From: Agelas oroides
Taxonomy: Eukaryota > Porifera > Demospongiae > Agelasida > Agelasidae
DNA: 64,000 nucleotides
Assembly: GCA_949130485.1 (NCBI GenBank)
Contig: OX422195.1
Coordinates: 2,279,566-2,343,565 of the forward strand
Direction: 5' to 3'
This document shows positions 21,528 through 64,000 of the stretch, piece by piece. The notes under the pieces are model-generated. The model saw only the letters and a program-made list of their open reading frames with translations. It made no database searches and was not told the DNA's origin. Each line of letters starts with the position of its first letter. Position 1 is the stretch's first letter. The translations under genes and the position numbers were made by a program.

Positions 21528-24500
21528 ATGGAACTTTGTGAAGGTTTACGTGTTGTCCGTGGCCCAAACTGGTCGTGGGGAGATCAGGACGGAGGAGAGG
21601 GTCACGTTGGGACGGTGGTGGAGGTAGGACAAGGTGGTGGGTGGGTGGTGGTTCAGTGGGACTGTGGGAACAAGTGCAGATACCGCTGTGGGGAGGAGGG
21701 AAAGTATGACCTGAGAGTCTTCGACAGTGGACCAACTGGTGAGTATGTTTATGAACTAGTGTTGGTCTCATGTCATAGTGGGCGTGGCAGTGCCATTTTA
21801 ATAAATTTGGGGGTGTCTACCAGTTCCTTAGACTCTGGACTGTTGACAATTTTAAGTATGTGTCAGTACTGTGACATAAGTCTTTTGTCTACCTTGTTGA
21901 GCTCTAGTTGATAGCAGCATTGACCATGAGGGCTTCGTATAGTCACAAGCAGTCAATGAACCACATCTCCCTTAATAAAAAGGCCTAGATGTTATGCAAA
22001 GTCACCCACCACACAGGATGCATTTCAGCCAATACCAGGCCTCATCAGCTGCGCTACATGCATACTCAACAAAAAGAAAGGGAGCAAGACTATCTCCTTT
22101 TATTTCACTAAAGGGAAAAGGGGGGGGGGGGGGGGGGGGATTGAACCTTGGGCTATGGAAGTGCTGCTTTGTTTCATATATTTGCCGTACTAAGCTAAGG
22201 CTTTAATACATCAGGTACTGTATCAGAAATACTGTACCTCTGACACCAAATGTAGTCTAGATGCAGACGGTGTAAATAGGCTCAATTTCAGACGTAGCAC
22301 TGCTTTTCCTACTGTTGTACGTCAAGAACAAGACGCCCAGCAGTGACATCACAAGAGCTGTACCTGAGGCACTGCCCTTGTGCTTGTACATACAATAACT
22401 ACAGCCATGTCTTTACAACAAAAGAGCATGTAGAACTCAAAAGTCGTATCCACAATACAATAAACCACATCCTCCTTAAAAAGACAGGCCCTTTTCTTGT
22501 GAACTGTGCAGAATGTGTATTGGCCAATACCAGGCCTCATCAGCTGTGCTGGGTGACTGTTATTGCAAGCAAGAAAGATAGTCAAATGGCCAGCCTTATC
22601 GCTGACGTATAGTATGCATGTGTTCATTCTCTGCCTGTTGTCTGTATATAGCTGGCTAGCAACTCCCCTGCAGGTACTAGACATGAAGAGAGGTGCAACT
22701 GGTGCCAGGATGAGCCACTCCGTGGCATGCTGTGGAGGTGTGCAAGGTGCTATGACTACAACCTCTGTATGTCCTGCTACATGAGTGGTGCACATACACT
22801 GGAGCATGAGTTCATCAGGATCGTTGCACAAGACTCACCAAACAAGTAGGTGTACAGACCTATACAGCAAGTAGCCTCGTTTCCAGGCTCTCACCTTGAG
22901 ACTGTACAGCAAGCTTTTTGATGGTCATAATCATAGATGGGGCTTAGTAATAGTTCAAGGTTAACAAATAGTCAAATTCGATTTTAATCATATTCATGAT
23001 GCTTAGTCATTGCTGAGTCATCACATCAGCAATCTGGTTTGATCACACAGAGAATTCTATTAGCTACAGGTCAGCTATATGTAACTAAGCCTCCTTTTCC
23101 TCAGATTGGGGCATCACATACCTTCCCTTGTGATGTAATTATTACCCCGCGTTCACGTGTGCAAGAGGTAAAGTGATTGGTTGTGTCCATCTGTCTGTCT
23201 GTTGGTGTAAAAAACGCCAGTTCTCCAGATCCAGGGCCATTCTAGTAGTGCTAAATACCTTCAAACTGTGGAAAACGTTACAAAACTGCCTTGTCTGTGC
23301 TTCTTTTCGCCAGATACACTCTACAAGCACTTATAATCCTGCGTTTTAATATAACAGTGAAATTTTGGTACTCTACTACCCCTGCACACTGAATATCTCC
23401 TCATCATAGATAACCTCATTCCCAGGCTTGTTCATGAATTGGGTCGATTTTTTTAATGAGCTTGGGAGTGAGGCTACATTGTAGAGTGATCTGAAATTTG
23501 GGTTATCAGCTGCAGAAGAGCCAGGGGTTCTAGACTCTTCCCAGACAAACTGGCAACAGTTGTGTGTTATTTCCTACAGAACCAGACTTCGATCAAGATA
23601 CTGCACAGCCAGAGTGATGGCAAGGGGTATCTTTGAGGGAGCCGAGGTGGTAAGGGGTCCAGATTGGAAATGGGGGAACCAGGACGGTAAGTAAATCTGA
23701 GAGCAGTTTCACGTCATTCTGAAACATTCTCATCTTTTCACACCCTAATGTATGCAGGTGGAGCCAGTTCACCAGGAAGAGTGCGAAAAGTTGAAGGATG
23801 GGGCAAAGAAACTGCTGTAAGCACATTACAGATGCTTAGTGTATACGTTTAAGAGGTATTTTTCTAGGGAAAATATTCTGTCCGCTGCTCACCTTCCGTC
23901 TAACACCTTAAAGTCAAAGTACTGAAGGAGGCCATATGTTGGAAAGTGCTACAGTTGTTCTTAAGACAAGCAAATGTTATTTGTGATGAACCTCTCTGTA
24001 GTATTTGGCAGTTGTGGGGAAAATATGAATGTTGTTTAGTTTGCTTACACATCACTTTTGAAGTGTAGTATCCCTAAAGTTATAGTAAGGGTGGAGCTAA
24101 GAGTCTGCGCATAGTTGCAGCAAGTATCAGTCCTTCACTGTTAAGCTCCAACCAATCACAGAGGTGTGATATGTGCATTGCGTCTGTATTCATACTTCTA
24201 CCTGAGGCTGCCATATGGGTCACTTCATATCACGTCTCTTATTGTTTTATTGAAAGCTGTTGTTTCATCTGGTTTTCTTCAGAGAAGTGTAGTGAATGTG
24301 GAATGGAAGGAGACCCACGTCAGGAATTTGTACAGGGTTGGACACAAGGGCAAGGTACATATATGACTGTATCTACACATGCCACCTTCAAATTGTTGAT
24401 AGTTTCTATGTTGTATTTACATTCATTTTATGACAGGTTGATTTACGATGTGAAGTTCCTGGAAATGGTGGCTACTACTATCCTGATCACCTGCCTGTAC

Positions 24501-27500
24501 TTGGTGAGCTTGTGTGTGCATACATGCACTATGGCTGTGGGATGGAGAACTGCATAGCATTGATGAAGACTAGAATTACACAGTGCTGCTCACTGTTTAA
24601 CAATTTGCATACTGAGAGATCAGTTAGTGGGCGTGGCTGGGTGATTCAGCAGTGTGCATAACAGAGAGTACAGTTAGTATATAGGTAGTTTGTGATGTGC
24701 ATGACCAAGAGATCAGTTAGTGGGCGTGGCTGGGTAATTCAGCAGTGTGCATAACAGAGAGTATATAGGTAGTTTGTGATGTGCATGACCGAAAACACAG
24801 CTAAGGGGTCGTGGTTTTGACAGTGTGCATGACCAAGAGATCAGTTAGTGGGCGTGCCTGGATGATTCTAATTGAGCAATGTGCGTACCTTAGAACAATT
24901 CATAGTAGTCTTGTGGGATATTGCATGGGTAAATTCTGCTGTTGCGCCTCTAGGTGCACCATACATACCATGTGAACATGAGGAGCTATCAGCTGGCGAT
25001 ACAGTCCAGGTCATGTTGGATCCAGACCTTTTCAGGATTGCTCAGGAAGATCACGGGGGATGGAATGACAGAATGGCAGAGGTAAATATTAATGGTTTCT
25101 TGGTGAAAGTTAGTCCTCATCTGCTGCATAAATCTAAAGTGGTGTAAGTCAAGCTGGGACGATACTCAAACCAACACTCTGTTTACGTACAAACTGGTGA
25201 CAGAAGCCTCATGAAATGTTGTTTCACCTCTGGTCTGCCTCCATCCTTGTGGCTGTAGTTTATTGGCACAGATGGTGTGGTGACCACTGTCCATGACTCT
25301 GAAGACGTCATTGTGAGGTATTCAAACAACAAGGCCTTCCGTCTCAATCCTCAAACACTAACCAAGGTAAGACTTAATATGATATCCCAACCCAAGGAGT
25401 CAATGGGAAAGCATTGTAGGTGCATGTAGTTAATTGTATTTCTTATTACAAGTCTCATGAGAATTCGTATCAGTACACAAGTCATGCATGCTACACGTCC
25501 AAACGTGCAATGAAATCATTATCACCATAGTACAAAGCTACGCCAGAAAACATGCACGAGTAACAGCGCAAAAGCAATAAGTGAGTGTAATTTTCTGGTG
25601 TAGCTATTATGGTGAAACTAAAACTAATACGATACATGTATTAAAAAATCTACATTAAAATTATTTCCCTATACTTCATACCATTAATGCAATATATAGG
25701 TGGATGTTCCAGTGTTCTATTATGGTGATGTGGTCCGAGTTCTTGAGGACATGGTTGAAGTTCACCGACTTCAAACTGGCCACGGGGAGTGGAATGATGA
25801 CATGGCACTGGTAAAAACACCATCCAATGTTCAGCAAAGCTGGGATGATTGAGCTATTGTATTAAAAGTGGAAGTTTGCAATATTGTCACTTCAACAGAC
25901 ATAGCCCCTTTCAAGTCTACTGCAGTAAATAATTCAGAAGCTAGTTGGTAATGAGGGTAATTTTAGAGGCATTCTTTCTTCAGTTCAGTTTGAAGCTGGA
26001 CGATCACACTTCGTAGAGTTGCTGCGTGCTCATGAACTACACTTGCCATTGGAGATTAGTTTAGAAACATGTTCAGTTTTGGCTGTAGTACATACATGTT
26101 CTGGGCTCTTTGTTACGACGTGCTGGTAGCCCCACTTCTATTGCTCTATAGTCCCTTCTTCTATTATTTAGGCCATATTACTTACGCTGTTATTCTGCAA
26201 TTTACATGCATACAGCCATACACACTCTTATGGGAATTTTCAGATATGTTATGTTACATATTCTCTCTGTCTTTTATTGTAGTCACTTGGTCAAGTTGGC
26301 CGCGTGATCAAAGTCCAAGCCAACAGTGACCTTAGGGTGGCTGTCAATGGGAGGCGGTGGGTCTACAACCCCCGCTGTCTCTCCCTTGCTCCTGGAGAGA
26401 TCCCTCTGGAAGAAACAACAGGTAAACACCCAGTATATATCATAACAGGTAAACACTCAGTATATCATATTGTTGTTGGTGACTCATACATGTTCTAAAT
26501 CTACTCCATTTGAGCTTTGTGTTTTATGCTGATATCACACAAAGTGACAATGGCCATTTTTTGTGGGGGCCGGGGAGGATCTGTTTCCAGGATTTTATGT
26601 GTTATAGAGTATTCCATTGAGGAAATAATGTGTTGAAAATCTAGCCTAACTTGACGTTCTCACGCAGACATCATTGAAGTGGGTAATGCAATGAGACTAC
26701 AGCTGCTCTCTCTGGTACAAGCGGACTGTCCCGATGTTGTGTGCGTAGCTGCAGAAGTTGGTGATGTCTCCACTATCATCACCTTCCTACAGAAGTACCC
26801 CAGTGAGGTACAGGCAGACATGCACATGTAGTTCTACATATGTACATATATGTCAATTAAAATTATTTGATGTTGATCATGCTCGAGCAAGACAGAAAAG
26901 CTTATGATTCGCATAATGGACGACTAGCCTCGTTCCCAGGCCACTCCCAAATTTTATCTCTCAGCAGTGGATATAAATGGGAGATAAAATCTGGGAGTGG
27001 CCTGGGAGCAAGGTTAATGGTGACTTAATTACTCTCCACATGTGCTTTCTGATCTTGCTAGTCACTGTTTGACTATAATGCTATCTGCTAGGTCATAATT
27101 TATGTTTATGCAGCGGACATGACTTTACCCGTATAGAAGTATCTTGGTTTATTCCTCTTCAGGTAAACACTACGTACCAGGGAAAAGGGCCCATACACAT
27201 TGCAGTTGTGCTGGGTTTCATTCCTGTGCTAAGAACTCTCCTCCAGTTCCATCCTGATTTAGAACTGGAGGTATATACCCCAAATAATTGCATGCTGTCT
27301 AGCCGTGGTACTTGTGCATACTTACCTGGTAATACAATTTCCACTTGACTTGCACTGCAGCATGTTAGATGAGAACACATCATGGTTTATGTAGACTAGA
27401 ACACACATAAATTAGAAGTGATTCTTCTTTGTTTTAGTAGAACATATAGCTTAGCAAGCCTGGCCTCGTTTCACCATGCATAGTGTGAGATGTATATTAC

Positions 27501-30500
27501 ATGATACTGATTACAGTAGGACTATTGGTTAGACTTTAAATCATATGTTATTGCTTACTATAGGATGACAATGGGGAAAAGGCACTACACCTGTGTGCTT
27601 ATGTGTGAGTTGAATTAGTTTATACCGGTGTATCAATTTCGTATTATGTCCACAAATTGTTAGGTATGCACTGCTGCACATATGTCACTAGCTAATAATT
27701 CTTACTTAATTGGCAAGGCTGATTTACTACATTGTGTGTTCTTAGCTTGTGTGAGTACTTTTTACATAGATGAGGTCAAATACACTGTTTTATTATCCAG
27801 TTGATATTACTACAACAGTATTTTCCTATTCCCGTGCCGTGCAATATCACACGGTATTGCACGAGTGTTATTGCATGGGTGTTATTGCATGGGCAGGAAC
27901 TACGCGGTATCCTAGCAACCATGATATGCTTTAATTAGAACCGGTGCGTTTCGAACAGCGAGTTACTTGGTTCTTTGTGTGAGTTGAGACACGACGCTGT
28001 TGTGGTAATGGATAATAAACATTTTATTACACTCGTTAGCGTGCATATCGCGGTTATTGCACTCGTGGGCTGCATTTTCACTCGCCTTCGGCTCGTGAAA
28101 ATACCACGCCCACTCGTGTAATAAGGTATATTTACCTTGAACAATTTTGCTCAATTTGAGCTATAAAGTTCATGTTTATTGTTATTAACTCCTCTAGATC
28201 CTTATAAAAAGGCCCTGTTCAGACTATCATGCCTTGGTTTACACATATAGCAACAATGCAACGGCAGCTAAGATCCTCCTGGATGCTGGTGCTGATGTGA
28301 ATTCAAAGGACTGGAATGGAGTGACCCCCCTAGCTGTAGCTGCAGCCCTTGGGCACTACAATGTCATGGAGCTTGTCATCAACCACCCTGGAGTGCGGAT
28401 TGATGTGCAGGTATGTGATCCTCCTTCTGGTTGATAATAGTACACAACCTTGCTCCCAGCCATCCGTGGTGAAATACGTGACGGTAGAGTACTGTATGTG
28501 GCATCATCAGTGAGGATCAGTTAACACATTGGTATTGTATAGCAGTGACAAGAATGATCACGCTGGTGAATTGTACAGTGTGTAGCTGTGGATAAATATG
28601 CCACTTGTACATAGCCCAGGCCCTCACCCAGCTTTCGACTCTTCAGGTTTCCGTACTGTAAACGACAAAAAAAGCTAGGCCTAGAAACTGATCATAACAT
28701 TTTTCCCTTTGACGAACTACATCTCCCTAAAAAATTCGCTCGTTGATTGTTCATGCATGTAGTTCATACACATTGACAGAGTGATCTTCTGATGGTAAGA
28801 TATATTCCATTCATTTCATCTTCTTTGTTGATGTTTTCCTTTGCCTCTATACGCAGGACTCAGAAGGGAAGACTGCACTGCACAGTTCCGTGTTCTCACA
28901 GAGAAGAAGATCAGTAGAGCTCCTGCTACAGAAAGGTGCTGATCCAACACTGTTGGACTTTGAAATGATGACCCCCATTCACAATGCTGCTGGGATTGGA
29001 TTTGTAGCGTAAGTGCCTGTACTGTGACTTTGAGCTAGCCTTGTTTCACTCAATAGAGTATATAATTCTGTGAATGTTTTTTTTGTTGGCTTTTCTGTTG
29101 GCTCCTGCATAAATAGAAGAAGGTTCTCGGATACTAACTTGGTTTTAGTAGCTCATTAATATATTCATGAACCCAAAATTGCCACTGATGGACGTATCTA
29201 CATGCTCACAGTATGTAGCGTCCTAACCGTCTATGAGTCTCATATGTATGTAATCTAATGCACACAACAAAGTGGCTATAAGGACAATGTCATGCGTATT
29301 TATCTGCAGTGGGATGGAGGAGATAATGAGGCATTGTCCCCAGTACATTAATGCCAGGAAGGACAACGATTCTACTCCACTACATGTTGCTGTAACAAAC
29401 CACCACTGTGATGTTGTCTCTCTTCTCGCTTCTCATGTGAGTAAACAGTCCTATACAGTCTATGTAGACTTTACAACAAACCACATATTTATGTAGTTTA
29501 CATGTAAGTGCATCAGTGAGATAGCAGTATAGTGATTGAGAAGGATGTGTGGTGGCTATCTTGCGAATATATTTCAATCTAAATAGAATACATGTGTAAA
29601 TAATACTAAATATGTTCTAGGCTGATTTCAATGACCACTTTTGATGACAGTTACATACCGTATAGCCAGAAAATTTGACGGGGAATTAAATTTGGCGGTT
29701 TGGCAGTCGGGGTTGAAACTGCTAAATTAAAATCCGCCAATATATTTTTGCCCGCAACACATAATGACGTAATGCATGCAGTAGCGCTCTTGGTCCCACC
29801 CGGTGCCCCTCTACGCGAGCTGTGCATATAGCTAGCTCGACGCTAGTACGCTGCCAGTTATATTTCTTGTAAATTTGCGAACCCACGGCATTGTTGAAGT
29901 ACCTCAAGCGAGTGGACGGCAACACCCTCTGATAAACGAGTGCGCAATGTTTATGATGACGTAATACGATGTGGGGCACCACCACCAAATTTAAATTCCG
30001 CCAATATTTTCTTATGCTTGGTTTGGGGCCAAACCGCCAAATTTAAAGACCGCCAATATTTCCAGCTATACGGTATGCTCATGATGAGTGTCGATCTCTT
30101 CTTGTTTTTCTTGTTTTTTCACGAGTATATATAGGCTAGTTCCCACAGACAAAGGCACTAGTTGGACACATGATTTAGTGCGATATTTCTGTATAGCATC
30201 AAACGGCATTATATTTGTCTTCATGTGTAGCCATCCTGTGACATTGATGCTAAGAACAGAAATGGAAATCTGACTCCGCTGCACATAGCAGTGCATGAAG
30301 GCCACATCAAGATAGTTGAAAGGCTTGTTGGATTTGGAGCTGATGTCAACAATCCAGCTGAACGGGGAATCACACCATTACACCTTGCACTTGGGAGAGA
30401 CACCATGCAGCAGCCCTCAGATAGCACCCCTCAGATCATGAAGGTATAACTGTGGGTACTGCATATATATAGAGCGATACTTTCAGTTCAACACACACAC

Positions 30501-32732
30501 ACACACACACACACCTGCATGATAACATACACCAGCACCCAACTGATGGTCTTGAGCCAATAAGTTCTGGTAATCTTGTGATTTTGTTCCACTTGAAAGT
30601 ACGAAATGACCAATTGATTAAGATTGATTGATTGATCAGTGATTAACTATTGTATAGTTATAGTGTCAACTGTAGTTGACTGTATCTATTTTAGTACGCA
30701 CAGGGATAAGTATATCGATCACCAGAGCTGTGAGTTTGAGCAAAGGTTGCTAAACAAGAAATTGTCATAGAAGGACACACTCTTTATTGAATGAAGAAAA
30801 TGAACTCTGCCCATGCACGGTATTAACCAGGATGAAACCCTGTGCATTTCACTCTGAGCTTTCTCCCTCCCTGTATGAAACCTTGCACTGAGTGCCTATA
30901 TGACTCTGCAGCTGCTCAAGTTGGTGTTCCTTTGCCTGTACAGATTCAACAAGAGCTGGAGAGAATCGGAAGGTTTAGAGTGCCTTCCAATGTGATGGTA
31001 GCCCTGTTTTTGGTGCAGCAAGGTGCAGACTCTCATGCCAGTGATGAACGGGGTATCCTTCCTTTTCAAATTCGTTCCCCCGATGTGGCTACACTTCTGC
31101 TGACTTTTATGAGGAGTAAAGGGTGAGAGAAAGTCCACTGTGTGTTCATGAGCAATGGATTATATAAAGGTAGAAATGAATAGTCTGTTGAGGAAAAATA
31201 AATCCAAGGTGAAGATCTGCTGCAAGTCCAGCCCAAAACCTTCTGAATACTACTCAAATGCACTTACCACTAAACCAGTACTTTGGCAGAGAAAATGAAG
31301 ACAAGCTGTATATGTAAGCAGATTGCGCCAAATTCCAACCTCAGCTGTGTTCCAACTGATTCTCACACTTTTGGCTTTCTGCCCACAAGCAAGTAACATT
31401 AATGTTTTGTTATAGAAAAAGTTAGTTTCTTTTATGAATGCACCTGGAGTCAAGGCACCATCATGTTTGCCCATCTTCTCCTGTGCAGCCCCAGTTCATT
31501 TCATGGTAGCCTGCGCAACTACACTCATTCATTCAACAGTACCTGGCCAAGCACCACAAAGTCTCAGGTTAGTAAGAACTTCATTTAACTAGTGTATGTA
31601 GTATGTTAAACAACAGAATGGGAGAGCCATGCATGTTATATAGGTTTCTAGCACAATTATCACAGATGTTCATTTCTCTCCTTCTCAGATGCACACATGC
31701 ACATACTCACAGAAAGATCAACTTTCTTCACCTGGTGCAGTCGGTGGTCCACCCAGCAGCTCTACACCTCAGCCACCAGCTCAGTTCGGTAAACAGTTCA
31801 ATAAAAGTTCCTCTGGTGGGACTGCTACACACCTTCACAAGGACCTCAACACCTACGCTAAAAAGCCACCAGTCAAGGCCTTGAGTGAAGGTTAGCGTCA
31901 TGATTTTTGGTGCACCAAATCTATAATTATGTATGTGCATTTGCATGAAGCATGGAATGAGAATGTACAACCAGTTTGATCGTAAAAGCAAAATTGCTGT
32001 GAGTAGGACTTGTAAGTTACACCCAACGTACAGAAATCATGTGTCATGGAGAAAATGTGTGTAAGTAGCACAAGTTATTTTTCTCTTGAGCGTGCGTGTT
32101 GAAGCTAAAATGAACCCCAAAGCTCTCCTGTCTGTTCCATGACCCATACATTTATGACTGTTGTGGTGAATGTGTATACATGTATGCAGACCAATATTAT
32201 TTGTAATGACTTTTGGATGAGGCTGTGTGTATTTCCCTTTCTTAGCTTCTTCGAGAGTGGTGCCATGTTTCCTTTGTCAAAAGGGAGCGGATACCAAGCT
32301 TCTCCCATGTGGCCATGTGATCATGTGCAGTGACTGTGCTGGCCGAGCTAAGAGGTGTCCAGATTGCAGGGTAGGCCCAATATTTATTCAGGTTCTTCTG
32401 TTGCCTACTGCTTGAACCATACTTGATCTATACTTGATTGCATCTACGTATACTGTAGGCAGTGGTGCAATCATTTGTAGCAACATGTGTGCTATGCCAG
32501 CAGGAGCAAGTTACACACACCCTCACACCTTGTGGTCACAACTACTGTTCAAGTAAGTATGTACATGCTGATGACATCAAATGTTTCCACTTCTTTCATG
32601 AATATTTCTACCGGAATCGTGTTGCAAAGATGACAGCCACTCTTTTGCCATTCAGATTGTGGTGCTCAACTCACAAGCTGTGTTGCCTGCCAGATGCTCA
32701 GTAGAACTGAAGAGGAAGAAGAAGCTTCCTAG
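21528..32732 (+). CDS. mib-like: Mind bomb-like E3 ubiquitin ligase A, two RING fingers, 23 coding exons
   Basis: MIB proteins are cytoplasmic E3 ligases that ubiquitinate Notch ligands (Delta/Jagged) and trigger their endocytosis. Exons: 21528-21738, 22674-22845, 23580-23686, 23758-23816, 24283-24354, 24437-24503, 24954-25081, 25259-25366, 25700-25810, 26283-26421, 26668-26807, 27163-27270, 27564-27604, 28251-28410, 28857-29008, 29310-29436, 30231-30443, 30944-31122, 31489-31567, 31689-31890, 32246-32370, 32459-32552, 32656-32732. Phases match throughout; the sum is 956 residues plus stop. Domains: MIB/HERC2 about 1-70 ([13 protein letters not shown]); ZZ about 74-120 (CNWC, CARC, CMSC, paired His); MIB/HERC2 about 135-229; Mib repeats about 230-308 and 309-391; ankyrin repeats about 400-765; Pro/Ser linker about 765-858; RING 1 about 864-900 (CFLC, CGH, CSDC, CPDC); RING 2 about 908-945 (CVLC, CGHNYC, CVAC). 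Two RINGs resemble vertebrate MIB2 more than three-RING MIB1. The start is the ATG aligned with MELC in the paralogues. The acceptor of exon 18 is chosen for phase. Confidence 0.94.
22120..22139. repeat. G homopolymer, 20 bases
   Basis: An uninterrupted G run in intron 1 of MIB-like A; its length may be affected by sequencing. Confidence 0.9.
24617..24863. repeat. About 100-bp imperfect tandem repeat, three copies
   Basis: The block GATCAGTTAGTGGGCGTG plus CTGG(G/A)T...TGATGTGCATGACC recurs three times in intron 6 of MIB-like A, the last copy shortened. Confidence 0.85.
26925..27016. mobile_element. 92-bp foldback MITE of the TAGCCTCGTTCCCAG family
   Basis: TAGCCTCGTTCCCAGGCCAC at the left and GTGGCCTGGGAGCAAGGTTA at the right form long arms that continue inward through the ATTTTATCTC block. 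It lies in intron 11 of MIB-like A. Related copies sit in intron 11 of MIB-like B (about 40,096-40,204) and C (about 53,142-53,225). Confidence 0.8.
29658..30073. mobile_element. TA-flanked MITE, 416 bp
   Basis: The left terminus CCGTATAGCCAGAAAATTT is an inverted repeat of the right terminus AATATTTCCAGCTATACGG, bordered by TA (29,656-29,657; 30,074-30,075). Sub-terminal AATTTGGCGG-type repeats occur in both orientations. It is non-coding and lies in intron 16 of MIB-like A. Confidence 0.75.
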
Positions 32733-44883: not shown

Positions 44884-46618
44884 AGAAACTAAAATAGTGC
44901 AATATGGCTATGCAGTTGTTTCTAGTGTACAAGAGCGCATGATGACATCATTTTTATTGCGGAGGGAGGAGGAATGACGTCATCATGCGCTCTTGAGTCA
45001 CATCTTTGTCACTTATTATGTCACAAACCAATACCAGTACCGAGGAGCTTTGTGATTCTTTGAGTGCGGGCGTATGGCACGCCACACATAACAAAATTAT
45101 GAAGTTGACTTCAACTTACCAAGTCGTTATATTGTGACTTGCCAAGTACGTCGTCTTTACGTCATGTAATGTTGTAATGTTGGTGCGTTAAAGTCATGTA
45201 ATAATGTTGGTGGGTTAAAGACCGTTCAGTGCACCACAATCGTCAGCAGTGGCTTGTAGCTGGATGGTTAGGGCCAGGGCCAGGGAATGGGGTTCTTCTC
45301 TTCTCTTTTTTTTTCTTTTTTTTCTGTGGTCCTTCCCTTCTTTTCTTTTTTTTTTTCTGTGTTCGAGCAAAGTAACCGCACCCCAAGATACTCACGGAAG
45401 GTTAGTGCTGCAGGTTTACCTTGGCTCGAACACTTTAGAGTTCAGTGCTATACGTAGGTGAAATCTTTGTTAGTATGCTTTAGGGAAGATTCTATTGAGC
45501 TACAAGACCTGGATTTTGTGCTGCAAATCTACTTGAAGTAGGAAACCTTAGAGTTCAGAGTTTGTGGCTTCTTAAAAAGCTTTACCCTCAAGGGAGGAGT
45601 CAGTCAATCGTGAATAGCTGAGCACGCCTTCACCTGCTTTATACTCGCGCGCGTTACGAGCATAATATTAGCCCAAAGTGTGGTAGCGCGCTCAATACGA
45701 TTTTATACGTAGGTATATTGAACGTGTTACGTCACGTAAGCGGAACAATCGCTTCGGGAGTCGCTGTGAGGGGTGACAGTGGTGTAGCTGGTGAAGGGAG
45801 AGTTTTTGGTATACCAAAGTTTCATTCCTGGGGTAAGTGCACCATGCCATTAACGAATATCAACTCAGACTGGATGTCCAACGCTTCCTCTGGCTTGTGT
45901 ATTATATTGTTATTTATATTATATTATACGACGCACCCAAGATGCTTATAAGAGGTAATGTTTGCTGGTAGGCCACTGCTACTTAGCTACAAGACCTGAA
46001 GTAGGTTTTAGAGATCAGGATTTTTTGCTGCAAATTTTCCTGAAGTTGAAAGCCTTAGAGTTCAGAGTTTTGTGGTTTCTTTAAGGGAGGAGCCAGACAT
46101 CAGTTTATCAATTGTGAATAGCGAGGTACGCCTTCACCTCCTTTATAGTCGCGCATTACGCGCGCGTAATATCAGCCCGAAGCGTGGTAGGCTTTGGTAG
46201 CGCGCTCAATACACGCAATGATTTTATACGTAGTATATTGAATGTGTGACGTCACGTAAGCGCTTCGGGCGCGGGAGTCGCTGTGAGGGGTGACAGTGGT
46301 GTAGCTGGTGAAGGGAGAGTTGTTGGTCTACCAAAGTTTCATTCATGGGTAAGTGCACCATGCCATTAACGAATATCAACTCAGATTGGATGTTCAACGC
46401 TTCCTCTGGCCTGTGTATTATATTGGGTTAGTTTATATTAATTATTTACGCGGGTCCTTTAAGTTCCATCTTGGGGTGTTATTATGCGGGTCCTTTAAGT
46501 TGCATCTTGGGGTGTAAAAAAATACCATGACGTAAAGATGACGTACTTGGCAAGTCGCAGACTTGGACCACAGGCTGTGTTTACATTTTGGGGGGTTCCC
46601 CGTATGTGCCGATCGGCA
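44884..46618. repeat. Spacer between MIB-like B and C with a tandem duplication of about 430 bp
   Basis: A unit at about 45,508-45,932 recurs at about 46,014-46,430. Shared landmarks are TTAGAGTTCAGAGTTT, a CGCGCGTTACG block, GCTCAATACGATTTTATACG or a close variant, and GGTGACAGTGGTGTAGCTGG. Both copies hold ACGTCACGTAAGCG, which is CRE-like (TGACGTCA-type). A hairpin of 17-base arms (CAAGAGCGCATGATGAC and inverse) lies at 44,932-44,995. A 35-base TTACGCGGGTCCTTTAAGTT repeat occurs twice near 46,447-46,515. No gene is recognised. Confidence 0.7.
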
Positions 46619-52600: not shown

Positions 52601-55600
52601 AACTCCACTCCACCTTAAATTATGGAATGTGTACCATGCTGGTAGCGACTATTTCAGGCCATGAACATCATAGTACACAGACTACATTCTGTGTATCTAT
52701 AGTACAGCTTACATAGCAAGATTCAAGCTTGTTCACAGTAGGCACTACAATGCAAGAAAAGAAAGTGACAAACCTGTCTGCAATACTTGGCAAGAGAACC
52801 ATTCTTGTGATACTGCATTAACTTTAACGAATGGGTGGAGTAGACTGCAATGCTACTGCTGCCTATTATTGTTGATGCGTGCTGAGTTGCACCTTCAATC
52901 ATGATGGTACAAACAGCATGTTGGGCATGCACATGTACATACATAATTGTGCTTCTCCAACTCTCCAGATGATGGCCATGTGAACCCTACACTGCGTATC
53001 CAGCTGCAGTTTTTGTTGGAGACAATGAGTCCAAAGATCATTCCCACAGCAGTCATTGCTGGAGATGCCTCCATACTCAGAGAATACCTGACAAAGTGCC
53101 CACATGAGGTAGCTGCATATGTATACATTGTGCTGGTTTCATTCCCAGGCCTCCACCATGCTTTCCGCACTTTTCTGTATTGCAAGCTACAAAAAGCTGG
53201 GAGCAAAGGCCTGGGAATGAGACTACATTGTCGCCACACGTCAATACATGCAATAGTACTAGTCAAGTATGTCACTGAATGCAACCATATTTGTTGTATA
53301 TTAGTTGTGCATTAACCACTAAGAGCATGGTATATTTACAAGCTGTGAAACTGTGTTAGTTAGCAGATTTGACATAAAGAAAGCCCTATAGTGCATAAAA
53401 TTAATGTGATACTAATAGAATGCTCCACCATGCTTTCCACACTTTTCCTACAAAAAGCTGGGTGGAGGCTTGGGAATCAGACTACATTGTGCCACACTGT
53501 CACCACATGTCAATACTCGCAACAGTATTGGTCAAGTATCACACGGAATGCAACCATGTTTGGTACTTCTGTCTAGGTTATTTTGCTTGGTAAAATGGGG
53601 TGTGATCAGGCTACAAGTGATTTTACAGACATCTGTAAATCTAGCTGGGACCTTTGCTAGATATACATGCAAAGGTTGCTCTGGCTTCTCTTCATCTACT
53701 TTGTTAATATGTCAGTTAAGCAAGCCTAGGTGAATTAGCAAAGCCGTTAATAATTCAAGGTATCTCTCAGGAAGGCAATGGATGTTACTAGATTCTGCAC
53801 TTCAGTTGGCCCTGTTCCTTTATCGTGAATTTGACTAATTCTATCTCAAGATGGGGGTCCAAGATTGCTAATTAGTTGTGCATTAACCACTAAGAGCATG
53901 GTATATTTACAAGCTGTGAAACTGTGTTAGTTAGCAGATTTGACATAAAGAAAGCCCTATAGTGCATAAAATTAATGTGTGCGTATGCATGTATGGGTGA
54001 TACTAATAGAATGTACTATTGATGGGTCTGTACACTTCCTCTAGGTGAATACACTGTTCAAAAAAAGGTCTGCTCTGCACATTGCAATAGCTGAAGGAAA
54101 TATGCACATTTTGCAACTTCTTCTGGAGTATGGACCCAAGTTGGAAATAGGGGTAAGTTACTTTTGACTATTCGTGTGACTGACACATCTAGTGTATGGC
54201 TTACATTTTGTTCTCTGCATGCAGGATGAAAGTGGTAACACTCCTCTGCATTATTGTGCAAACTTGTGAGTCAACATCAGAAGAAATATCAGTACGACAT
54301 AATACAAAATGCCTGAGTATGTCCTAACCACATTATCACCCTTAGTCCATTAGCTAAGTCACATTGGTGCTTTCTAAATACCTGTTGTAGTATTGTTGTG
54401 TGGTGAATGGATCATTGTTCTGCAGTGACCAAGACGATGCTGCAAAGCTCCTCCTTGATGCCGGTGCTGATATAAATTACAAGAATGCAGTTGGTACCTT
54501 CCCCCTGAAACTCTGTACTGCATTAGGAAACTACAAAGTACTGAGGCTATTGGCTAAGCACCCTAAAGTGAACTTGCATAATCAGGTACTTAAACACCAC
54601 ACTGAGTTACATACAATGCATTACACATAGAAATGATTAGATATATCTATCTTTGCACCGAGTTAAGCTGGACAGTTGGCTGTCTGGAGAAGAAACTATA
54701 CTATAGCATCAATCAATAAAACTGAACCTTGCTATATGTAGGAGGCTAGGAGCTTTATCTCAGAAGTGTGATAGCATGCCACCCCACTTCCTCACCAGGA
54801 TATTGATGGTAACACAGCTCTACATGCTGCAGCACGTGCACACAGGAATGAGGCAGTCACTATCTTGCTGGATGCTGGCGCTGACCCTGCACGGTATAAC
54901 AATGATTTTTTCACACCCATCCTTGAGGCAGCAAAAAATGGATTCTTTGCGTAAGGTTTTTTCTTTGGTGTTTCATGGTTTCAGTCAGCATCAGATTCTC
55001 ACAGAGAATTCATCACAGCACAACAAAACGTACTCAACATAAAGTAGGAAACATGTACTTTTGAAGCAGTTCACAATCTAGCTATGGTAATCTGTTGAGC
55101 GTTCAGCTAAGTACTGACCTCGTGTATGCAAAGTGCACCAGCCACTTGATTCTCTCACGTGACCCTTTGCACTGCATTGATGTGTACTTTAACTCACTTT
55201 GAACAGTCACTGCAAGTACAACAACGTTTAATAACCCAAGTGTCACATGCCAGCAGTACACTACTTCACAAATATCATTTCTAGTTTATTGAGCATGGCC
55301 AATACCCTTTATTGACATCTCCAGTCAGATGCCGAGTAATGTATGAATATTGGTGACTTGTAGTCTAATTTGTCGTTATCTTGAGCGTGATGCTCATATA
55401 AACTGGAACTCCATGTACAAATTTAACCCTTAATTTCCTCCAGAGGGATGGAGCAGTTTATGGCTCGTTTTCCAGAGCATGTGAATATGGTGAAGGCAGA
55501 TGATGAGCACACTGCACTGCACATTGCGGCAGCCAATGACCACTTGGACATAGTCCGACTACTTGCTTCTATGGTATGTTAAATATTGGATACCATACAT

Positions 55601-57696
55601 ACTACTGTACAGTCCCTTAAGTATAACAACTACAAAGACACATGACTAGTTTGTCATTGCACCACAGACCACTTGCAATCTGAATGCAAAAAACCATCTG
55701 AAGCAGTTGACTCCTTTGCGCTTGGCTGTTGAACGAGAACATTCTAGAATTGTGGAGGTCCTGGTGGGGTATGGGGCTGATGTGAACATGACATGTTCTG
55801 ATGGCCATACACCACTACATGTTGTGACAACAAACAAAGATATGAAGAATCCAACACCCCAGACACAACAGCTGCAGAGGGTAAGAATACAAGTATCATA
55901 GTATGTAAGGTGCATGGAAACATTCTACCAGGAACAGTGGTTGTATACATGTGGACACATAATTTGTGATGGGAGGAAAGTGCTTCTGTTGTGTGACTGA
56001 TTAAGACAACACATAGCCGCTGCAAAAACTGCAAACAAACTAAGTACGTTGCCAGTGTGCTGATTGCTTGATGTCAATTTTCACTTCAAACATGCATTTA
56101 TTGCCAGTTTGTTTTTGTGGACAGCATGTTTTACATGTATGTCACTTATGTTAGGTCAATGACCAGCTGGTGGCTCTCAATGATGGAAAGCCAGTAGAGC
56201 CCTACGTGACTGTGGCAGCTTTCCTGGTGCAAGAAGGTGCTGATGTGCACATCAAGAGCAGTAGAGGTGTCAGCCCCTTGCAAGTCTGTCCTCCCGATAT
56301 TGCAGCATTGATTACCAAGTTTGCTAGTGAACACCCGTAAGTTGTCAATCCATGTAAGTGGCATCTTGTAATCTTCACATGAGATCAATAAACTATTCAG
56401 TAAAGATCCTTGTGGATCCTAGTGGTTAACTGCTACGTCACAATCAGACAATCATTGAGCTGTTTTGCTGTAGCAAATTTACAGTTGCAAACATTTCAAC
56501 CTGAGGACCTTCATCAGTGCACTAAGGAAGGTTTGCAAACATTTACTGTAAATTCTCTACAATAAAGCAGCTCAAATAATCCACTACATTTTTGTATGAG
56601 ATTGATGGACTTGTTGGATGTCATTCTCCTATAGACATCCAGTATTTGCTGGTACACTACGTTCTTCCTCCCCACATTCTCTTACAAAGACACCTCAGCT
56701 GCCAACTGTAAGATCCACATTACAGCATAATAATTATGCATTTGGTAACTATTGTAGTTCGTCAACAGTGTATATACCTCTTATGGTGAACTCTATCAAT
56801 TCCAAAGCCAACCAACAGTGATGTGTTACAGAGACAACTAGGAAGTGGAGGTACAACAGTTGTGGAGAACAGTGAGCCTCCCAAACTGCCACAGGGGGGA
56901 GACAAACAAACAACACCTCAATCAGCAGCAGAAGTGCAGTCACATGACGTCTCAAGCCCACAGCTGCCCACTAGTAGCACTGATGGACATGTAAACAATG
57001 CTGTCACAGCTAACACCCAAACACCCAGCGGTGCCAAGCTATTGGATATCGACACTAAGAAGAATGGTGCTGCTGTCAGTGCTGAACAAGGTTTGTGTCT
57101 TGCAGTCTGAGTACGCCAACACGTCCATCTACGTTTAATACTGTCATTTTGCTCTTTTATTTATACAATGAATACAGCTGATGACATGGCACAAGACAAC
57201 TTCTGTGCACTTTGTGAAAATCCTGCTGATGTCAAGTTTGAACCATGTGGACACGTGACCATGTGCAGTGATTGTGCTGACAGAGCAAAGAGATGTCCTG
57301 TTTGCAAGGTACAGGCTCCATGAGATTAACTACATTGAAACTAAACTATACAAGGGACATAGATGAAATATGAATCAATGAATGAACAAAAGAAGGTGGG
57401 GCTACCCTTCAATTCTTTTGAACTACTGTAATTCAAGCGATCAAAGGCTTTGTAAGGAATGATCAAGGGATCGAGGGTGGTTTTACCAATCAAATTCAAT
57501 CACAAACGTGACTACCCCTGGGCTGGGGAATGCAGCCTTGTTCCCAGGCCATTAGCTACATGACTTTGTTGTATCACAACTGTGTCTATTATCTAACAAT
57601 GCATTTGTCTGTGAGCTTCATGACAGCACTCATTACCGCATACTGTGTTCTTTCATTATACAGAACCATGTGGAATCCAAGTTGAAAAGCAGTTAG
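46696..57696 (+). CDS. mib-like: Mind bomb-like E3 ubiquitin ligase C, one RING finger, 22 coding exons
   Basis: Exons: 46696-46906, 48080-48266, 49225-49325, 49649-49707, 50063-50134, 50410-50476, 50675-50802, 51374-51481, 51968-52078, 52209-52359, 52969-53108, 54045-54152, 54225-54265, 54426-54585, 54799-54950, 55444-55573, 55668-55880, 56155-56336, 56635-56707, 56832-57090, 57178-57308, 57664-57696. Every exon equals its gene B counterpart in length except exon 20, which has nine more bases; 938 residues plus stop. Domains are as in B: MIB/HERC2, ZZ, MIB/HERC2, two Mib repeats, ankyrin block, Pro/Thr linker and a single RING (CALC, CGH, CSDC, CPVC) with tail [10 protein letters not shown]. 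Exons 16-22 and their introns are nearly identical to gene B; exons 1-10 and introns resemble gene D more. Intron 1 carries a MITE absent from D. Confidence 0.94.
46992..47386. mobile_element. 395-bp TAGTCTCGC-family MITE with 9-bp target duplication
   Basis: The termini TAGTCTCGCAGGCCTGACCC and its near inverse ending GCGAGACTA are flanked by CTTCTTTGT on both sides (46,983-46,991; 47,387-47,395). MIB-like D keeps the empty site (CTTTTTTGT once) near 58,265-58,275. Internal ACAAGCCGTGTCCC and GGGACACGGCTTGT are also inverted. It is non-coding; the 9-base duplication suggests a Mutator-like source. Confidence 0.85.
48535..48612 (-). repeat. tRNA-derived repeat, minus-strand copy
   Basis: On the minus strand CTCAGTGGTAAGCATGTCC is followed by GGTTCCGGGTTTGATTCC, an A-box/B-box arrangement. 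A matching copy lies at about 59,148-59,218 in MIB-like D. It stands opposite a plus-strand tRNA-like copy about 400 bases away. Confidence 0.5.
48968..49040 (+). repeat. tRNA-Thr-like pseudogene or SINE head in intron 2 of MIB-like C
   Basis: The anticodon arm TCTGA-CTAGTGT-TCAGA pairs perfectly with loop anticodon AGT (Thr). The T arm CTGGG-TTCAATT-CCCAG also pairs. The sequence 5' of the D arm does not pair with the 3' acceptor strand, so a functional tRNA is unlikely. A copy lies at 59,536-59,608 in MIB-like D. Confidence 0.55.
53300..53979. repeat. 109-bp direct duplication in intron 11 of MIB-like C
   Basis: Bases 53,300-53,408 recur essentially identically at 53,871-53,979, starting ATTAGTTGTGCATTAACCAC. 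Between them, a CACCATGCTTTCC(G/A)CAC block near 53,425 repeats one at 53,155. Repeat-mediated duplication of about 570 bases is the simplest reading. The intron is 936 bases here against 326 in B. Confidence 0.85.
56454..56576. mobile_element. MITE in intron 18 of MIB-like C, orthologous to 43,421
   Basis: It has the same GAGCTG...CAGCTC inverted termini and the same insertion point as in MIB-like B. Confidence 0.7.
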
Positions 57697-57982: not shown

Positions 57983-60900
57983 ATGGAGCTGTGTGTAGGT
58001 TTACGTGTTGTTCGTGGCCCGAACTGGTCGTGGGGGGATCAGGACGGAGGGGAGGGCCACGTTGGGACGGTGGTGGAGGTAGGGCAGGATGGTGGGTCGG
58101 TGGTGGTTCAGTGGGACTGCGGGAACAGGTGCAGGTACCGCTGTGGGGAGGAGGGAAAATATGACCTGAGGGTCTTCGACAGTGCACCGACTGGTAAGTG
58201 GTGCAGTTGCATCGATTCTACCTTGATTGCAATTTATAGGTCGCCATTCCTTTCTGATGGCTGTCTTTTTTGTAGACCCGTTTTATGACTTGTCTATGTT
58301 CTAGCTACATCCTTCGTAGATAGATAAAGTGTCTGGTTATGCTACAACCACCGAGTTGTCACCAAGGAACACAATTATAATTTGTACAGCACGGTTAGGT
58401 AATAAGATGCTGAAATCTGCTAACCATGCAGTGTCGTATGTGCTACTCCATGGCAACAGGTACAATCCACAAAGAGTGTGATTCTACATCAACGGTTAGT
58501 CACAGCAACATTTGCCATAGTGACAGCGTCAACAGTTGCAGTGTAACCAGACTCTTCCTCTTTTTGTGAAGGCTTGCAACATAAACAAAAAGAGGTTGTC
58601 TAGCTTCTGCCGTCTCCGAATTGAATACTGCATGAGAGTAGTTGAGAGTACACACCATTGGTGCTAACATGGTGCATGGTGGTGTTGAGTGCTTCTTCAT
58701 GGTCATATAGTCATGAAAGCCATGAAAGTACGCTACCAACACACAGCCATTAGGTTATGGCTTGTATTCCTACATACTTTATCTTGGTCCTACATTGGTC
58801 AGTCTTGTGGTTAGAGAGAGCACCACCTCAACGTCAATCTGCTCTTTTGGTTTACGTATAGGTCTAGTCCATCCCCAGTTGAGGTGCCATGGATGTCTTC
58901 TGGAAGGGATAGCTGGAATACTGTGGAAGTGTGTCCGCTGTTTGGAGTACTTTCTCTGCACACCTTGCTATACAGCTGGCAAGCACAGTGTAGAACATTC
59001 CTTTCTGAGGATTGACGGTGAAGATTTAACTGAAAGGTTGGGAGAAACGTAAACCCTCAATTGCCTGAATAATTTCTTTCCAGTTTTAAATCCATCCACT
59101 TGCTATGAAAGTAGTGAGAAATGGGTGAGAGAAAGAAAAGTCCACAGGATTCGAGCTTGGAATCAAACCCGGAACCTTTCCATTACTAGTTGGACATGCT
59201 TACCACTGAGCCACTGGACCCATGGCAGAGAAGCGGAAGCAAATCTGCTTATATCAGCCAGGCTAGAGGCCTTAGCCGACTCCAGCTGTCTTTCTCTCTC
59301 TCACCATTGAATACACTGCCTTATTGTGAATGGTGATCTGCGGACAGGGTTGCGGGCCTGGGGTGCATGGATGGACTGTACAAACACATTGCCTGAGTAG
59401 ATACTATCCACCACCCCAGCCTCCAGTTCAATTATCTCCCGACACATTGTCACCTGTTCTACAACAGGCCTCAAATGCTGACATCAGTGTAAATGGCTAA
59501 CAAATACAGTCATAGGAATCTCTGTGGTTTGTTGTGAAGCTCTGTGTCAGTGGTAAGCATGTCTGACTAGTGTTCAGAAGGTCCTGGGTTCAATTCCCAG
59601 CTGAATCCCCGTGGATTTTTTTTCACTCCCTCTCCAACGCTTACATTAAGTTTGTTCCTGCCTACATTTGTTCCTGCCTACACATCGTAACAATTTCACA
59701 TTCTGTTATTTCAGACAATTGCAAGTTGATTATTATCAGTAGAAGAACTAACCAATCAAATTATGAATCAATCAGAGGTGAATCAAACATTCTTAAAACT
59801 AACTTTCATATTAGAACCAGAGTGCACTGGAGGGCCAGGTCTTTGAGAATTGAGGCAAGGGGCATATTCCCGGGAGCAGAGGTAGTTCGAGGCCGTGATT
59901 GGAGATGGGGAAACCAGGATGGTAAGCAGCCACAACAAACATTTCTACCACAAGTTGCACCATGTATGCTAAAAGCTGCTTTTAGTTAAAGCTTATTCAC
60001 ACACCTACCAGCGTTCTTGTCATTCCAAATGTTATTTACAACTATCCCAACTCCGGTCATTTGTTTTTTACACAAGTATCATTAGGGGTTAGTGGTATCA
60101 ACTCCAACAGCTGCATTCTCCAGTGTTCTTGCTGTTCCAAGTGCATTTATTCATAATTATTTTACAACTATTCTACCTCTAGTCATTTCTTTTATGCAAG
60201 TATCATTTATGAATGATAATTGGCCCTGATTGGTGGCTACATTCTCTCACCAGGAGGTCTGGGTATGGTTGGCAAGGTGGTTAATGTTCAGGCATGGAAG
60301 AAGGAGTCCGCAGTAAGTGGTTGGATGTCTAGCATGTGAGAATCAGTTCCCAACTCTGAAAACTCTCCTCTACAAGAAATGCAAGCCCCAAGTACCAACC
60401 GCAAGCTAGTACATACTCCCATTCAAAACCATCATATGAAGTAGTATTCAGATATACTGCCTGAAGGATTATGTTCTACAATACTAGATTCTCACTTGTT
60501 TGTAGCCACATTCCCAGGCCTCCCCCATTTTTATTCTTTGGCTTGTGTTCACAGTAATACATGGAAACAGATATAATTGTGAATGCGAATCAAAGAATAA
60601 AAAAACGGGACAGACCTGGCAATGAGGCTAGAATTAGAGCATCTATTTGAAGCATCCCACAATTGTGAAGTATGTTGGATTATTCTCCTTACATTGCTTG
60701 TTCTGTTGTCCATACACTCGTGCAGAGGAGTGTGGCAGGTATTGAGTGGATTGCTGTCCATAGGAAGAACCAATACAGAGTGGGCCACAGGGGAAAGGTA
60801 CACATGATGCACTTTCCCCACCAAATTGTACTCATGGTTATTATACTACATATCATCAATCACCAGTTTCTGTGGTTTCTTAGAATGTTCCATTTCCTGT

Positions 60901-63900
60901 GACTAGTATTTGTCTACCTTCTTCACTCCTAACACATATATATTTCTATATACTGATAGAGCAGTGTTTAACTCCACTTTACCCATAATCATAATGAAAC
61001 TTGGCAGGTAGACAGTATGCAATTCTTCCCCTTATAATTAATTATAATATAATTAAGTGGTGTAACTTAATGCAGGTTGATCTGAAGTGCACAAAGCCAG
61101 GAAGTGGCGGGTACTACTACCCAGAGCACCTTCCTGTCCTTGGTGAGAGTTAGCCCTATGCATCACTTTCTAGCGGTAGGGTACTCTTCTTCCTTCTTTC
61201 TCTCACATACACATCACATGCTTATGTACAGTTGTAACATCTATACATGTGCAGTATCATTTCCATGAGGGTGCACAGTTTACCTGATTAGATCACCCTG
61301 ACCTCCTGTGATATCCACTTCCCATGTTTGTCATTGCAGGTGTCCCCTATGAGCCTCCGAGGGAGGGAGAGTTTGCAGCTGGTGACACAGTCAAAGTTGA
61401 GCTGGACCCTGATGTGTGGAAGCTGATGCAGAATGGTCATGGAGGTTGGAATGATCTCATGGGCATGGTGAGGTTCTCAGTGTGTAGGAATCTGGTTGTC
61501 ACTTGAACTGAAACACAATGCCATATACTGTAGGTCATAATCTCAATTAATAGCTAGTAGTAGGATATAGTCTACTATGGGGTCATAATCTGTGACTACC
61601 TGACTGCACTGCATCATATGTGACTACATTGATAATCAAATTCCTGGTGACCTGGGTAAAAGCCTGCCTTACAACAAGTACAATACACCAATTTTTTAAT
61701 ATTATAAAAAAAAAATTTTTTCAAAATATTATATAAACTGATGGTTAGAATCCAGGTTTGGTGTAACACTTATAAATTCGTAATCGATCAACTTGCCTCA
61801 ATCTCATTTGGTTGCAGATAGAATTTACATTTAGCATTCCCCAACCCTACCTTAACAATGTCATTCAGATAGTGGAAAGATGCATATATCAGATTAAGGA
61901 GAGCATAAGTAGCAAGCTAGGCTGAGAAATGTTCTCTGCTTACTGCTGGGCTACTATTACAATCTGAGAGGGAAAAAATCACTTTTCTAAACCCATATTT
62001 TATTTTACAGCTCATGCTTAGACAAGTAACAAAATGCTGGGATCACTGTTCTTCGTAATAAACAAGATGAGATAAAAAGTTGTTGTTTTTATCCAAATGT
62101 GAACAATATTCTTTTTGTTTCATGGAACTAAGTGTTTTTTCACCAGAAAAGTTCCTGATGATTCAATCTTCAAGTATGGAAAGATGTATATACATGTGCG
62201 GTAGCCAAGTGGGGGGAGGCAATTCCTGGTCTTAGTGTGGTCTTCAATCTAAATGGCACATGTTATAACATGTATTGTACTTCCCAGTACATAGGAATGA
62301 TAGGGAAGGTGCACTATATTGATGATAATGGAGACCTGCTGGTAAACTATTTCAGCAATGCCATGTTCTGCATCAACCCAGCAGCTGTTACCAAGGTGAA
62401 GAGGAATACCCGCTACTTGTCCATTACTACGAAGATAACACTATAGTACTTATCATCCATGCTGTATGCCAATTTTGGCCTATTAATTATCTGGTAAACC
62501 AGCAGAATCATGATGGAGGTCTGTTTGTATATGTGGCACATAATGTTAATGCTTGGAACAGTTTATTCCCAAGCCATCCTAGAATGTTTTACCGACCCTA
62601 TTACTAGTCCCATTATCGGACCCTTGTCACAACAACAGTTGTGTGTGTGCCTTACTGATGGTCTGGGAACAATTAAGACTATCCTGTACACCCATTTGTA
62701 GTGTTGTGCATAGCAGATTGGAGCAGAAGCTATGACACTATTCCCTGGTAAAGTGGCTAGTACATGGGCTGTTCTCATTATGGATGTAAAGCTACTATTT
62801 TAGGCTGCTGATGATTTTGTACAGGTGGATGTCCCAATGTTTGAAGCAGGTGATGTGGTGTCTATCATGGAGGACCGTGCTGAAGTCAGCAAGCTGCAGA
62901 AGGGACATGGAGAGTGGAGAGAGGATATGACAGCTGTAAGCACCTGGATATGTAACTTGCAGCAATAGGTGGTACCTAGAAGTTTTCTGCAGTAGTACCA
63001 CTGTTAAACCTGCATGTCTTGCAGTGCAAAAACACTATTTATACCACCACATGCAGTCACTTGGCCAACTTGGACGAGTGTTGAGGGTGGTTCCCAATGC
63101 AGCACAGGACGTGCAGGTCTCAGTGGCTGGGAGAAGGTGGACCTTCAACTCTGCCTGCCTAAAGCCTGCCCCTGGGGAGAATCCTGCCTCCTCAGACCTT
63201 GATGGAAGTGGGTGATACTCACATACAGTGCTATTCTTTATAGCTTGTTTAGATTTACCATAGAGCTCCACTGTTACGTATAACCAAATATAGACTAACA
63301 TCTGGTTGAGCAATGTAACACCCTGGTCATGTGACCACCAAACAGTGCCATTGATCTACACATCTTGCCTCTTCCCCAGTTTTACATAGTACATGTTTAC
63401 TTCACACTTCACACACCAGCTAGTTGTCAGCTCCACTCAAAATTAAAGTGAATGTCCCTACGTAACTTGTATAAGGACTACCATTTAGAAATGACAGAGG
63501 TAGTCTGGAATACAATTTGAGTACTTGAACCTAAGATGGTATATGTACCATGGTGATAGCTACTGTCTCAGGTTATAGTACAGACTACACTCTGTGTATC
63601 TATAGCACAGCTTACATAGGAAGGTTTTAGCTTAGTCGCAGTAGGCACGGTAATGCAAGAAACGTGACAAACCTTTCCACAAAACTTACCGAAAGAACCA
63701 TTTATGTATTAACTTTGGTAACTGGGGTTTGTATATAACATAGTATTTGCTTGATCAAAGGTAAGCTATGTATGTCAGACACTGAGCTGAGTCCTATTCT
63801 GACTCTCATGCATCGAGTTATGTTTTTCCATTACTGTACTACCCTGCACACCATGCCTAACAAACCACAAGCCTGCTTTTGCATGGACGTGGTATTTGTC

Positions 63901-64000
63901 CACGATATTTGTGGACATGGGCTAAACAAATGGGTGGTATACACATATGCAGTAGACATGTAATGCTACTGTTGCCTATTATTGCTAGGTGGGTGTTTAT
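57983..64000 (+). CDS. mib-like: Mind bomb-like E3 ubiquitin ligase D, 5' part, runs off the window
   Basis: Ten exons are visible: 57983-58193, 58862-59048, 59821-59921, 60254-60312, 60726-60797, 61076-61142, 61340-61467, 62288-62395, 62825-62935, 63057-63207. All lengths and phases equal those of B and C, coding for the first 398 residues: MIB/HERC2, ZZ (CHGC, CVRC, CTPC), second MIB/HERC2 and both Mib repeats. Exon 11, the first ankyrin exon, is not present up to 64,000. By alignment of intron 10 with gene C it should start about 80-100 bases beyond the window. RING content is therefore unknown. Exons 1-10 and introns are closer to C than to B. No stop or frameshift is seen. Confidence 0.92.
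59148..59218 (-). repeat. tRNA-derived repeat, minus strand, intron 2 of MIB-like D
   Basis: It is the counterpart of the copy at 48,535-48,612. On the minus strand CTCAGTGGTAAGCATGTCC is followed by a GGTTTGATTCC B-box. Confidence 0.5.
59536..59608 (+). repeat. tRNA-Thr-like pseudogene in intron 2 of MIB-like D
   Basis: It has the same AGT anticodon arm and T arm as the copy at 48,968 and lacks a paired acceptor stem. The B-box GGTTCAATTCC is intact. Confidence 0.5.

Follow-up and report, generated by a model that had tools for sequence, protein, structure and literature searches.

Mind bomb genes usually number one or two per animal. Members of the family are diagnosed by MIB_HERC2, ZZ, ankyrin and RING domains occurring together, and a Mindbomb is present in the sponge Amphimedon (PMC2770060, Table 2 for the domain set). 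For Amphimedon, five Deltas and one Notch are given (PMC3482393). The MZM and REP parts of MIB1 mediate its binding of Notch ligands (PMC11887331). In zebrafish, Mib carries three RINGs as in MIB1, and Mib2 ubiquitylates DeltaC and is tabulated with NF-kB components (PMC3979679). An array of mind bomb genes was described in none of the titles and abstract openings searched, with subscription papers outside that scope.

The window, that is, the whole stretch of 64,000 nucleotides analysed here, corresponds to C13:2279566-2343565 (C13 being its contig, 9.2 Mb long) in a 259-Mb assembly of 141 contigs from the sponge Agelas oroides. It was joined with 200 kb of adjoining sequence to a region of 264 kb, and genes were modelled with a purpose-written spliced aligner that used gene B as seed. 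Nine mind-bomb-like genes, A to I, were identified in spliced models over about 169 kb of C13, eight on the plus strand and F inverted:

Gene A, C13:2301093-2311980 (window 21528-32415), plus strand: complete; spliced model of 22 pieces, coding exon 1 at 21528-21738, RING exon from 32246, stop after a 13-residue tail; MIB_HERC2-ZZ-MIB_HERC2-SH3_15x2-ankyrin-RING by Pfam on an earlier model.
Gene B, C13:2312658-2323870 (window 33093-44305), plus strand: complete, 915 aa from 20 coding exons; the model was curated, its introns are GT-AG and its phases agree, and Pfam was run on an earlier version.
Gene C, C13:2326261-2336888 (window 46696-57323), plus strand: complete, 20 coding exons, 918 aa; spliced model.
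Gene D, C13:2337548-2348676 (window 57983-64000, exons 1-10 of 20), plus strand: spliced model on the joined region, with tail.
Gene E, C13:2379210-2385967, plus strand: start set to the nearest in-frame ATG.
Gene F, C13:2399482-2386571 plus a short tail, minus strand.
Gene G, C13:2399627-2412881, plus strand: start set to the nearest in-frame ATG.
Gene H, C13:2414049-2433276, plus strand: start set to the nearest in-frame ATG.
Gene I, C13:2456716-2470319, plus strand.

Mind-bomb-like genes have genuinely expanded in tandem here, and no damage to their frames is visible. Each gene has about 20 coding exons, and the exon-1 donor has the same position and phase in all nine. F and G lie head to head, with about 145 bp between their starts, and E and F tail to tail. 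Models of A, F, G and H comprise 21-22 pieces and those of the other five genes 20; borders are uncertain at exon 19, at the first codons and at some edges in the models of A, F, G and H. Microexons of 2-17 bases from the first spliced alignments were rejected, one of them being the edge of a missed real ankyrin exon of 41 bp.

An earlier note, made from the letters of the window, had described an array of at least four such genes on one strand, with A to C complete and D present as its 5' half, starts 11.3-13.6 kb apart, conserved exon lengths and no frame-disrupting change. The array and its spacing were borne out: the first 10 of D's 20 exons fall inside the window, and the measured distances are 11565, 13603 and 11287 bases. 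Exon lengths in A-D match closely in the spliced models (211, 172-187, 107, 59, 72, 67, 128, 108, 111 and so on). None of the nine models contains an in-frame stop; since the aligner penalises stops and may shift a splice border round one, intactness is strong for conserved exons and weaker at exon edges. The common strand holds for A-D as well as for E, G, H and I, and fails for F beyond the window. The rightward extension that had been proposed yielded the 3' half of D and five further genes (E, F, G, H, I) on the same contig, so 'at least four' was too low. The observation was right and understated; it missed these five genes and the likeness of exon 1 among diverged copies.

Array genes share the layout MIB_HERC2, ZZ, MIB_HERC2, SH3_15 repeats, ankyrins and one C-terminal RING. 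In the first models of A and B, Pfam matched two MIB_HERC2, ZZ, two SH3_15, ankyrins and a C3HC4 RING, and in the N-terminal 396 aa of I it matched MIB_HERC2, SH3_15 and ZZ; the diagnostic mind bomb set is thus present in full in A and B and in its N-terminal part in I. The SH3_15 mind-bomb repeats form two stretches each in A, B and I, and all 23 SH3_15 matches of a genome scan lie on C13, C8 and C17. A RING was found in 7/9 genes by the genome profile scan (E <= 0.05; F and G were outside the listed matches) and in 9/9 by pattern, and the stop codon follows 0-23 codons past the end of the RING model in all nine. A second RING pattern was absent from the 264 kb, where an intron-split RING could escape a pattern search, and no second RING at the cluster was among the profile matches listed, for which 150 of 252 candidates were scored.

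Genome-wide, at least 17 MIB_HERC2 matches were obtained. Those on C13 comprise nine first-exon matches and one to a second domain (gene A), with no further gene, and the others belong to one gene on C8, one on C17 (three matches) and loci on C14, C5 and C12. From sequence, the C14 domain was read as HECTD1, the C5 domain as HERC2 and the C12 domain as a B-box protein. The frame at C12:3809246 is long, carries MIB_HERC2 at its C-terminal end and B-box-like zinc fingers as read from the sequence; a RING match at C12:3807488 falls in a frame that is likewise 685 codons long. The C17 gene is MIB1-like, with 70% identity to human MIB1 (PDB 4xi6) over 262 aa and three RING profile matches in line on its strand, of which two exceed the Pfam cut-off and the third is weak (E 0.03). 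The C8 gene is MIB2-like, with a matching exon 1, the same SH3_15/ankyrin exon run as the array (136, 140, 108, 41, 169, 152, 127 and so on) and two RING profile matches 13-19 kb further on. The RINGs of both genes are known from profile matches alone and were assigned by strand and position. Array bodies are 42-50% identical to C8 over SH3_15-ankyrin and 41-49% identical in protein to each other (seven pairs, outside B/C/D). At least 11 MIB-type genes were found in the genome, nine of them in one cluster.

Compared with MIB1, the array shows the same domain order and 42-49% identity to the human protein over the N-terminal part, against 70% for C17; however, MIB1 has three RINGs and array genes have one, and a separate MIB1-like gene is present on C17. 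The array also resembles MIB2, apparently including the human protein, in the order MIB_HERC2-ZZ-MIB_HERC2-SH3_15-ankyrin-RING, and its exon lengths are largely shared with C8. It differs from MIB2 in having one RING instead of two, nine linked copies and a homogenised exon 1. The best-scoring solved structures for the array RING were cIAP and XIAP, and no MIB2 chain was among the best 60 of 351 matches in a structure-chain search or in a further such search. Because C17 and C8 hold separate genes and each array gene has one RING, the array is, to judge from its sequence, an extra single-RING family of MIB2 type. The earlier designation as Notch-ligand-type E3 ligases is, on the same grounds, unsupported as stated.

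B, C and D are recent copies. DNA self-comparison aligned them blockwise, with offsets of about 10.6-14.3 kb between neighbours and about 24-25 kb between B and D; the likeness of A to them is confined to exon 1 (about 90%), a weak match in the RING exon (74-77%) and one short inverted match. Their dN/dS, a measurement suggested in the earlier note, is 0.37 (B-C), 0.40 (B-D) and 0.43 (C-D) over the whole coding sequence, at dS 0.11-0.20. Identical fourfold sites number 29/34, 32/35 and 32/35 in exon 1 of these pairs against 331/359, 295/333 and 330/350 in the rest, so the synonymous rate of exon 1 is ordinary within the trio. An apparent signal of positive selection in exons 5-10 of the trio, where amino-acid differences outnumbered synonymous ones, disappeared with corrected splice borders (dN/dS 0.34-0.44 in exons 7-10), and RING-exon values above 1 for B-C (1.06) and B-D (1.47) rest on 2-3 synonymous changes. 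One part of B departs from the general pattern:

3' part of gene B (region of exons 18-19, approximate borders), window 42964-44000, plus strand: B/C/D alignment in 600-column blocks.

Here B is 85-97% alike to C and only 57-77% to D, the reverse of what most other parts of the genes show; roughly 1 kb has been exchanged between the 3' ends of B and C.

Among the diverged copies, exon 1 stands apart from all other exons. In the ten pairs of A, B, E, G and H, 261/308 (85%) of its fourfold-degenerate sites and 90% of its amino acids are identical, whereas the other 19 exons of the same pairs reach 25-58% and 15-79%, the highest at fourfold sites being exon 4 (38/66). The exon-1 fourfold identity was reached in 0/2000 column shuffles (highest 0.67), and the best of 775 other windows gave 0.52. 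In these pairs, dS is 0.07-0.52 in exon 1 and 2.1 to infinite in the rest, and dN is 0.02-0.08 against 0.45-0.58. Over the 21 pairs within A-E, G and H, base identity of exon 1 is 86-96%, and Fisher tests of exon 1 against the rest gave p < 0.001 in 18; the exceptions BC, BD and CD show no difference between exon 1 and the rest, which is what recent copies should show. Significance is lower in the 15 pairs involving F or I (p between 0.001 and 0.4), and all these p values are optimistic since pairs are not independent. B and E, for example, share 30/30 fourfold sites in exon 1 and 54/179 in the rest (p = 3e-14). In the 21 pairs among A, B, E, F, G, H and I, synonymous sites of the bodies have reached or nearly reached saturation (pS 0.67-0.77).

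In the nine-region alignment, the likeness occupies a tract of about 190 bp that encodes the first MIB_HERC2 domain, with sharp borders from about codon 6 to the exon-1 donor; the first codons before it differ between most genes. Within the window, the tract lies as follows:

Homogenised exon-1 tract of A, window 21543-21738, plus strand: from the nine-region exon-1 alignment and fourfold-site identity.
Homogenised exon-1 tract of B, window 33108-33303, plus strand: fourfold sites 30/30 identical to E and 29/31 to H.
Homogenised exon-1 tract of C, window 46711-46906, plus strand: fourfold sites 26/30 identical to E and 25/31 to H.
Homogenised exon-1 tract of D, window 57998-58193, plus strand: fourfold sites 29/31 identical to E and 29/32 to H.

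F is a mosaic: fourfold sites of its exon 1 agree at 56/83 over the 5' half and at 10/37 over the 3' half. I is intermediate (50/73 and 31/52). In the dispersed relatives, exon 1 of C8 gave 38/78 in the 5' half, slightly above the usual background, and 19/51 in the 3' half, and C17 is at background (20/68 and 7/27). GC3 is higher in exon 1 than in the rest in all nine genes (0.54-0.69 against 0.39-0.48).

The island in exon 1 is probably the result of recurrent interlocus gene conversion among linked genes that would descend from an old tandem duplication of an ancestor of MIB2 type. Conversion among the linked copies would keep the island of about 190 bp alike and would stop where the flanks have diverged beyond pairing. 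Synonymous identity of the tract lies far above that of the rest of the same genes, and the likeness is limited to linked copies with an otherwise normal substitution rate, the 5' half of C8 being slightly raised. Conversion between linked copies also fits the half-by-half pattern of F, I, C8 and C17 better than a general codon constraint does. Against it stand the somewhat high value of exon 4, which is without explanation, and gene I, which is unconverted by other signs and retains its intermediate identity in both halves. The exon-1 tree, being too short, does not significantly reject the topology of the bodies (AU p = 0.227), which leaves distances as the basis of the argument. An origin of exon 1 from a cDNA template was rejected, as the 3' exons are not homogenised.

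A length of 190 bp is near the lower limit for efficient conversion, which asks for a hotspot or for selection. Gene conversion is classically stronger at 5' ends, and exon 1 may be affected because conversion starts near promoters, a weaker element of the proposal. As in other tandem arrays under concerted evolution, there is a homogenised tract between linked paralogues with mosaic copies and raised GC3, but here it comprises one 5' coding domain exon only, and other exons of the same pairs are saturated. The UGT1 and protocadherin clusters likewise consist of tandem genes with an unequal division into first exon and body; there, however, first exons vary and the rest is shared, whereas in this array whole bodies differ behind a nearly constant first exon. 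The island is a clear natural test case for why conversion persists in a single exon once the sequence on either side has diverged, and for whether 5' ends are preferred.

Conversion might also be incidental, with selection keeping the first MIB_HERC2 domain uniform as a docking site for one common substrate or partner, a somewhat unlikely alternative. The MZM part of MIB1 does bind the N-box of Notch ligands (PMC11887331), and exon-1 dN among A, B, E, G and H is far below that of the rest, but low dN follows from conversion itself; F and I, moreover, have open frames without full homogenisation. Selection on synonymous sites, through a promoter-downstream element, a splicing enhancer or an antisense transcript, could in principle conserve exon 1 without any conversion, and the position of the tract at the 5' end of every gene, the antisense open frames overlapping it in A-D, the partial retention of the 5' half in F and I and the raised C8 value would agree with it. 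This is nevertheless improbable, as the synonymous rate of exon 1 is ordinary in B, C and D, background values occur in unlinked C17 and in the 3' half of C8 despite a conserved protein motif, F changes within the exon, and exon 3, the start of the second MIB_HERC2 domain, reaches only 27/89, although exon 4 of the same domain is higher. A recent spread of exon 1 as a mobile cassette or exon replacement would explain the sharp borders at both ends and the gene-specific first codons of several copies; it is very improbable given that exon-1 DNA copies were found only in the array and its C8 relative (best candidates scored), that donor position and phase agree in all nine genes and that F is alike in one half. 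An assembly artefact of haplotypes or mis-joined copies, which the earlier note had named as a danger for B, C and D and which the similarity of C and D (78-99% in 24/27 genomic alignment blocks) might suggest, has a next to negligible probability, since dS of 0.11-0.20 and the linear order on one contig argue against B, C and D being one gene, all nine genes stand in line on 9.2 Mb and bodies outside the trio share only 41-49% protein identity.

Under interlocus conversion, the preferred reading, the proteins would be adaptors of ubiquitin-ligase type with a shared docking domain and differing ankyrins and linker, possibly tuning the endocytosis of Notch ligands or other receptors. Notch-ligand activity is plausible, and an immune or receptor-trafficking role would be equally open. 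More tentatively, and with a rather low probability, the array could be a ligase repertoire that combines a substrate-docking first module, held constant in seven genes by selection and promoter-proximal conversion, with diversifying ankyrins, linker and RING. One receptor class, perhaps numerous Delta-like ligands, could then be served by several single-RING ligases under different regulation. Splicing of exon 1, whose donor phase is the same in all nine genes, onto the bodies of neighbouring genes is even conceivable. The array makes ligand-side diversification of Notch-type signalling testable in this animal.

Other components of this signalling context were also scanned. DSL-domain matches number 18 in the genome, three of them apparently in one open frame; such matches are exons and not directly comparable with gene counts such as those for Amphimedon. 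Several are clustered, at C14:486438-504934 and on C20. The Neuralized domain, the other domain family of Notch-ligand E3 ligases, gave 19 matches (exons, not genes), of which seven form a run at C2:3340333-3410679 and are apparently expanded in tandem. Homeobox matches amount to at least 32, so homeobox genes are apparently few.

Between H and I, at C13:2445560-2455932, lies a second array, made up of five similar frames: four have 288 aa, and the fifth is an open stretch of 211 aa. One scanned frame contains a lycopene cyclase domain (NCBIfam TIGR03462, E 1e-12) and lacks Pfam matches at E <= 0.01. Among animals, enzymes of the carotenoid type are unusual. In five of the ten pairs, 167/183 fourfold sites are identical in the first 72 codons, the 5' quarter, against 294/423 later. 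Left out, once the table had been seen, were the pair L3-L4, alike throughout (35/38, 31/31, 34/37, 37/38), and four pairs with the shorter fifth frame, which is without the 5' part. The 5' bias would support the idea of 5' polarity and is, as one other array with pairs chosen post hoc, suggestive and not decisive.

Dense tandem repeats precede gene A, at window positions 5876-6016, 7992-8202, 11667-12019, 13756-14087, 16755-17005 and 18075-18509, and include a 32-bp unit in 11 copies with 99% matches. An 80% repeat pair lies between B and C (window 45505-46445), a perfect 109-bp repeat pair inside introns of gene C (window 53300-53979) and a transposon-type integrase frame (Pfam rva_4) between D and E (C13:2374486-2375838). 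Elsewhere in the genome, at C3:17580162-17689102, giant uninterrupted ankyrin-repeat frames of 3714, 5246 and 5971 codons were observed.
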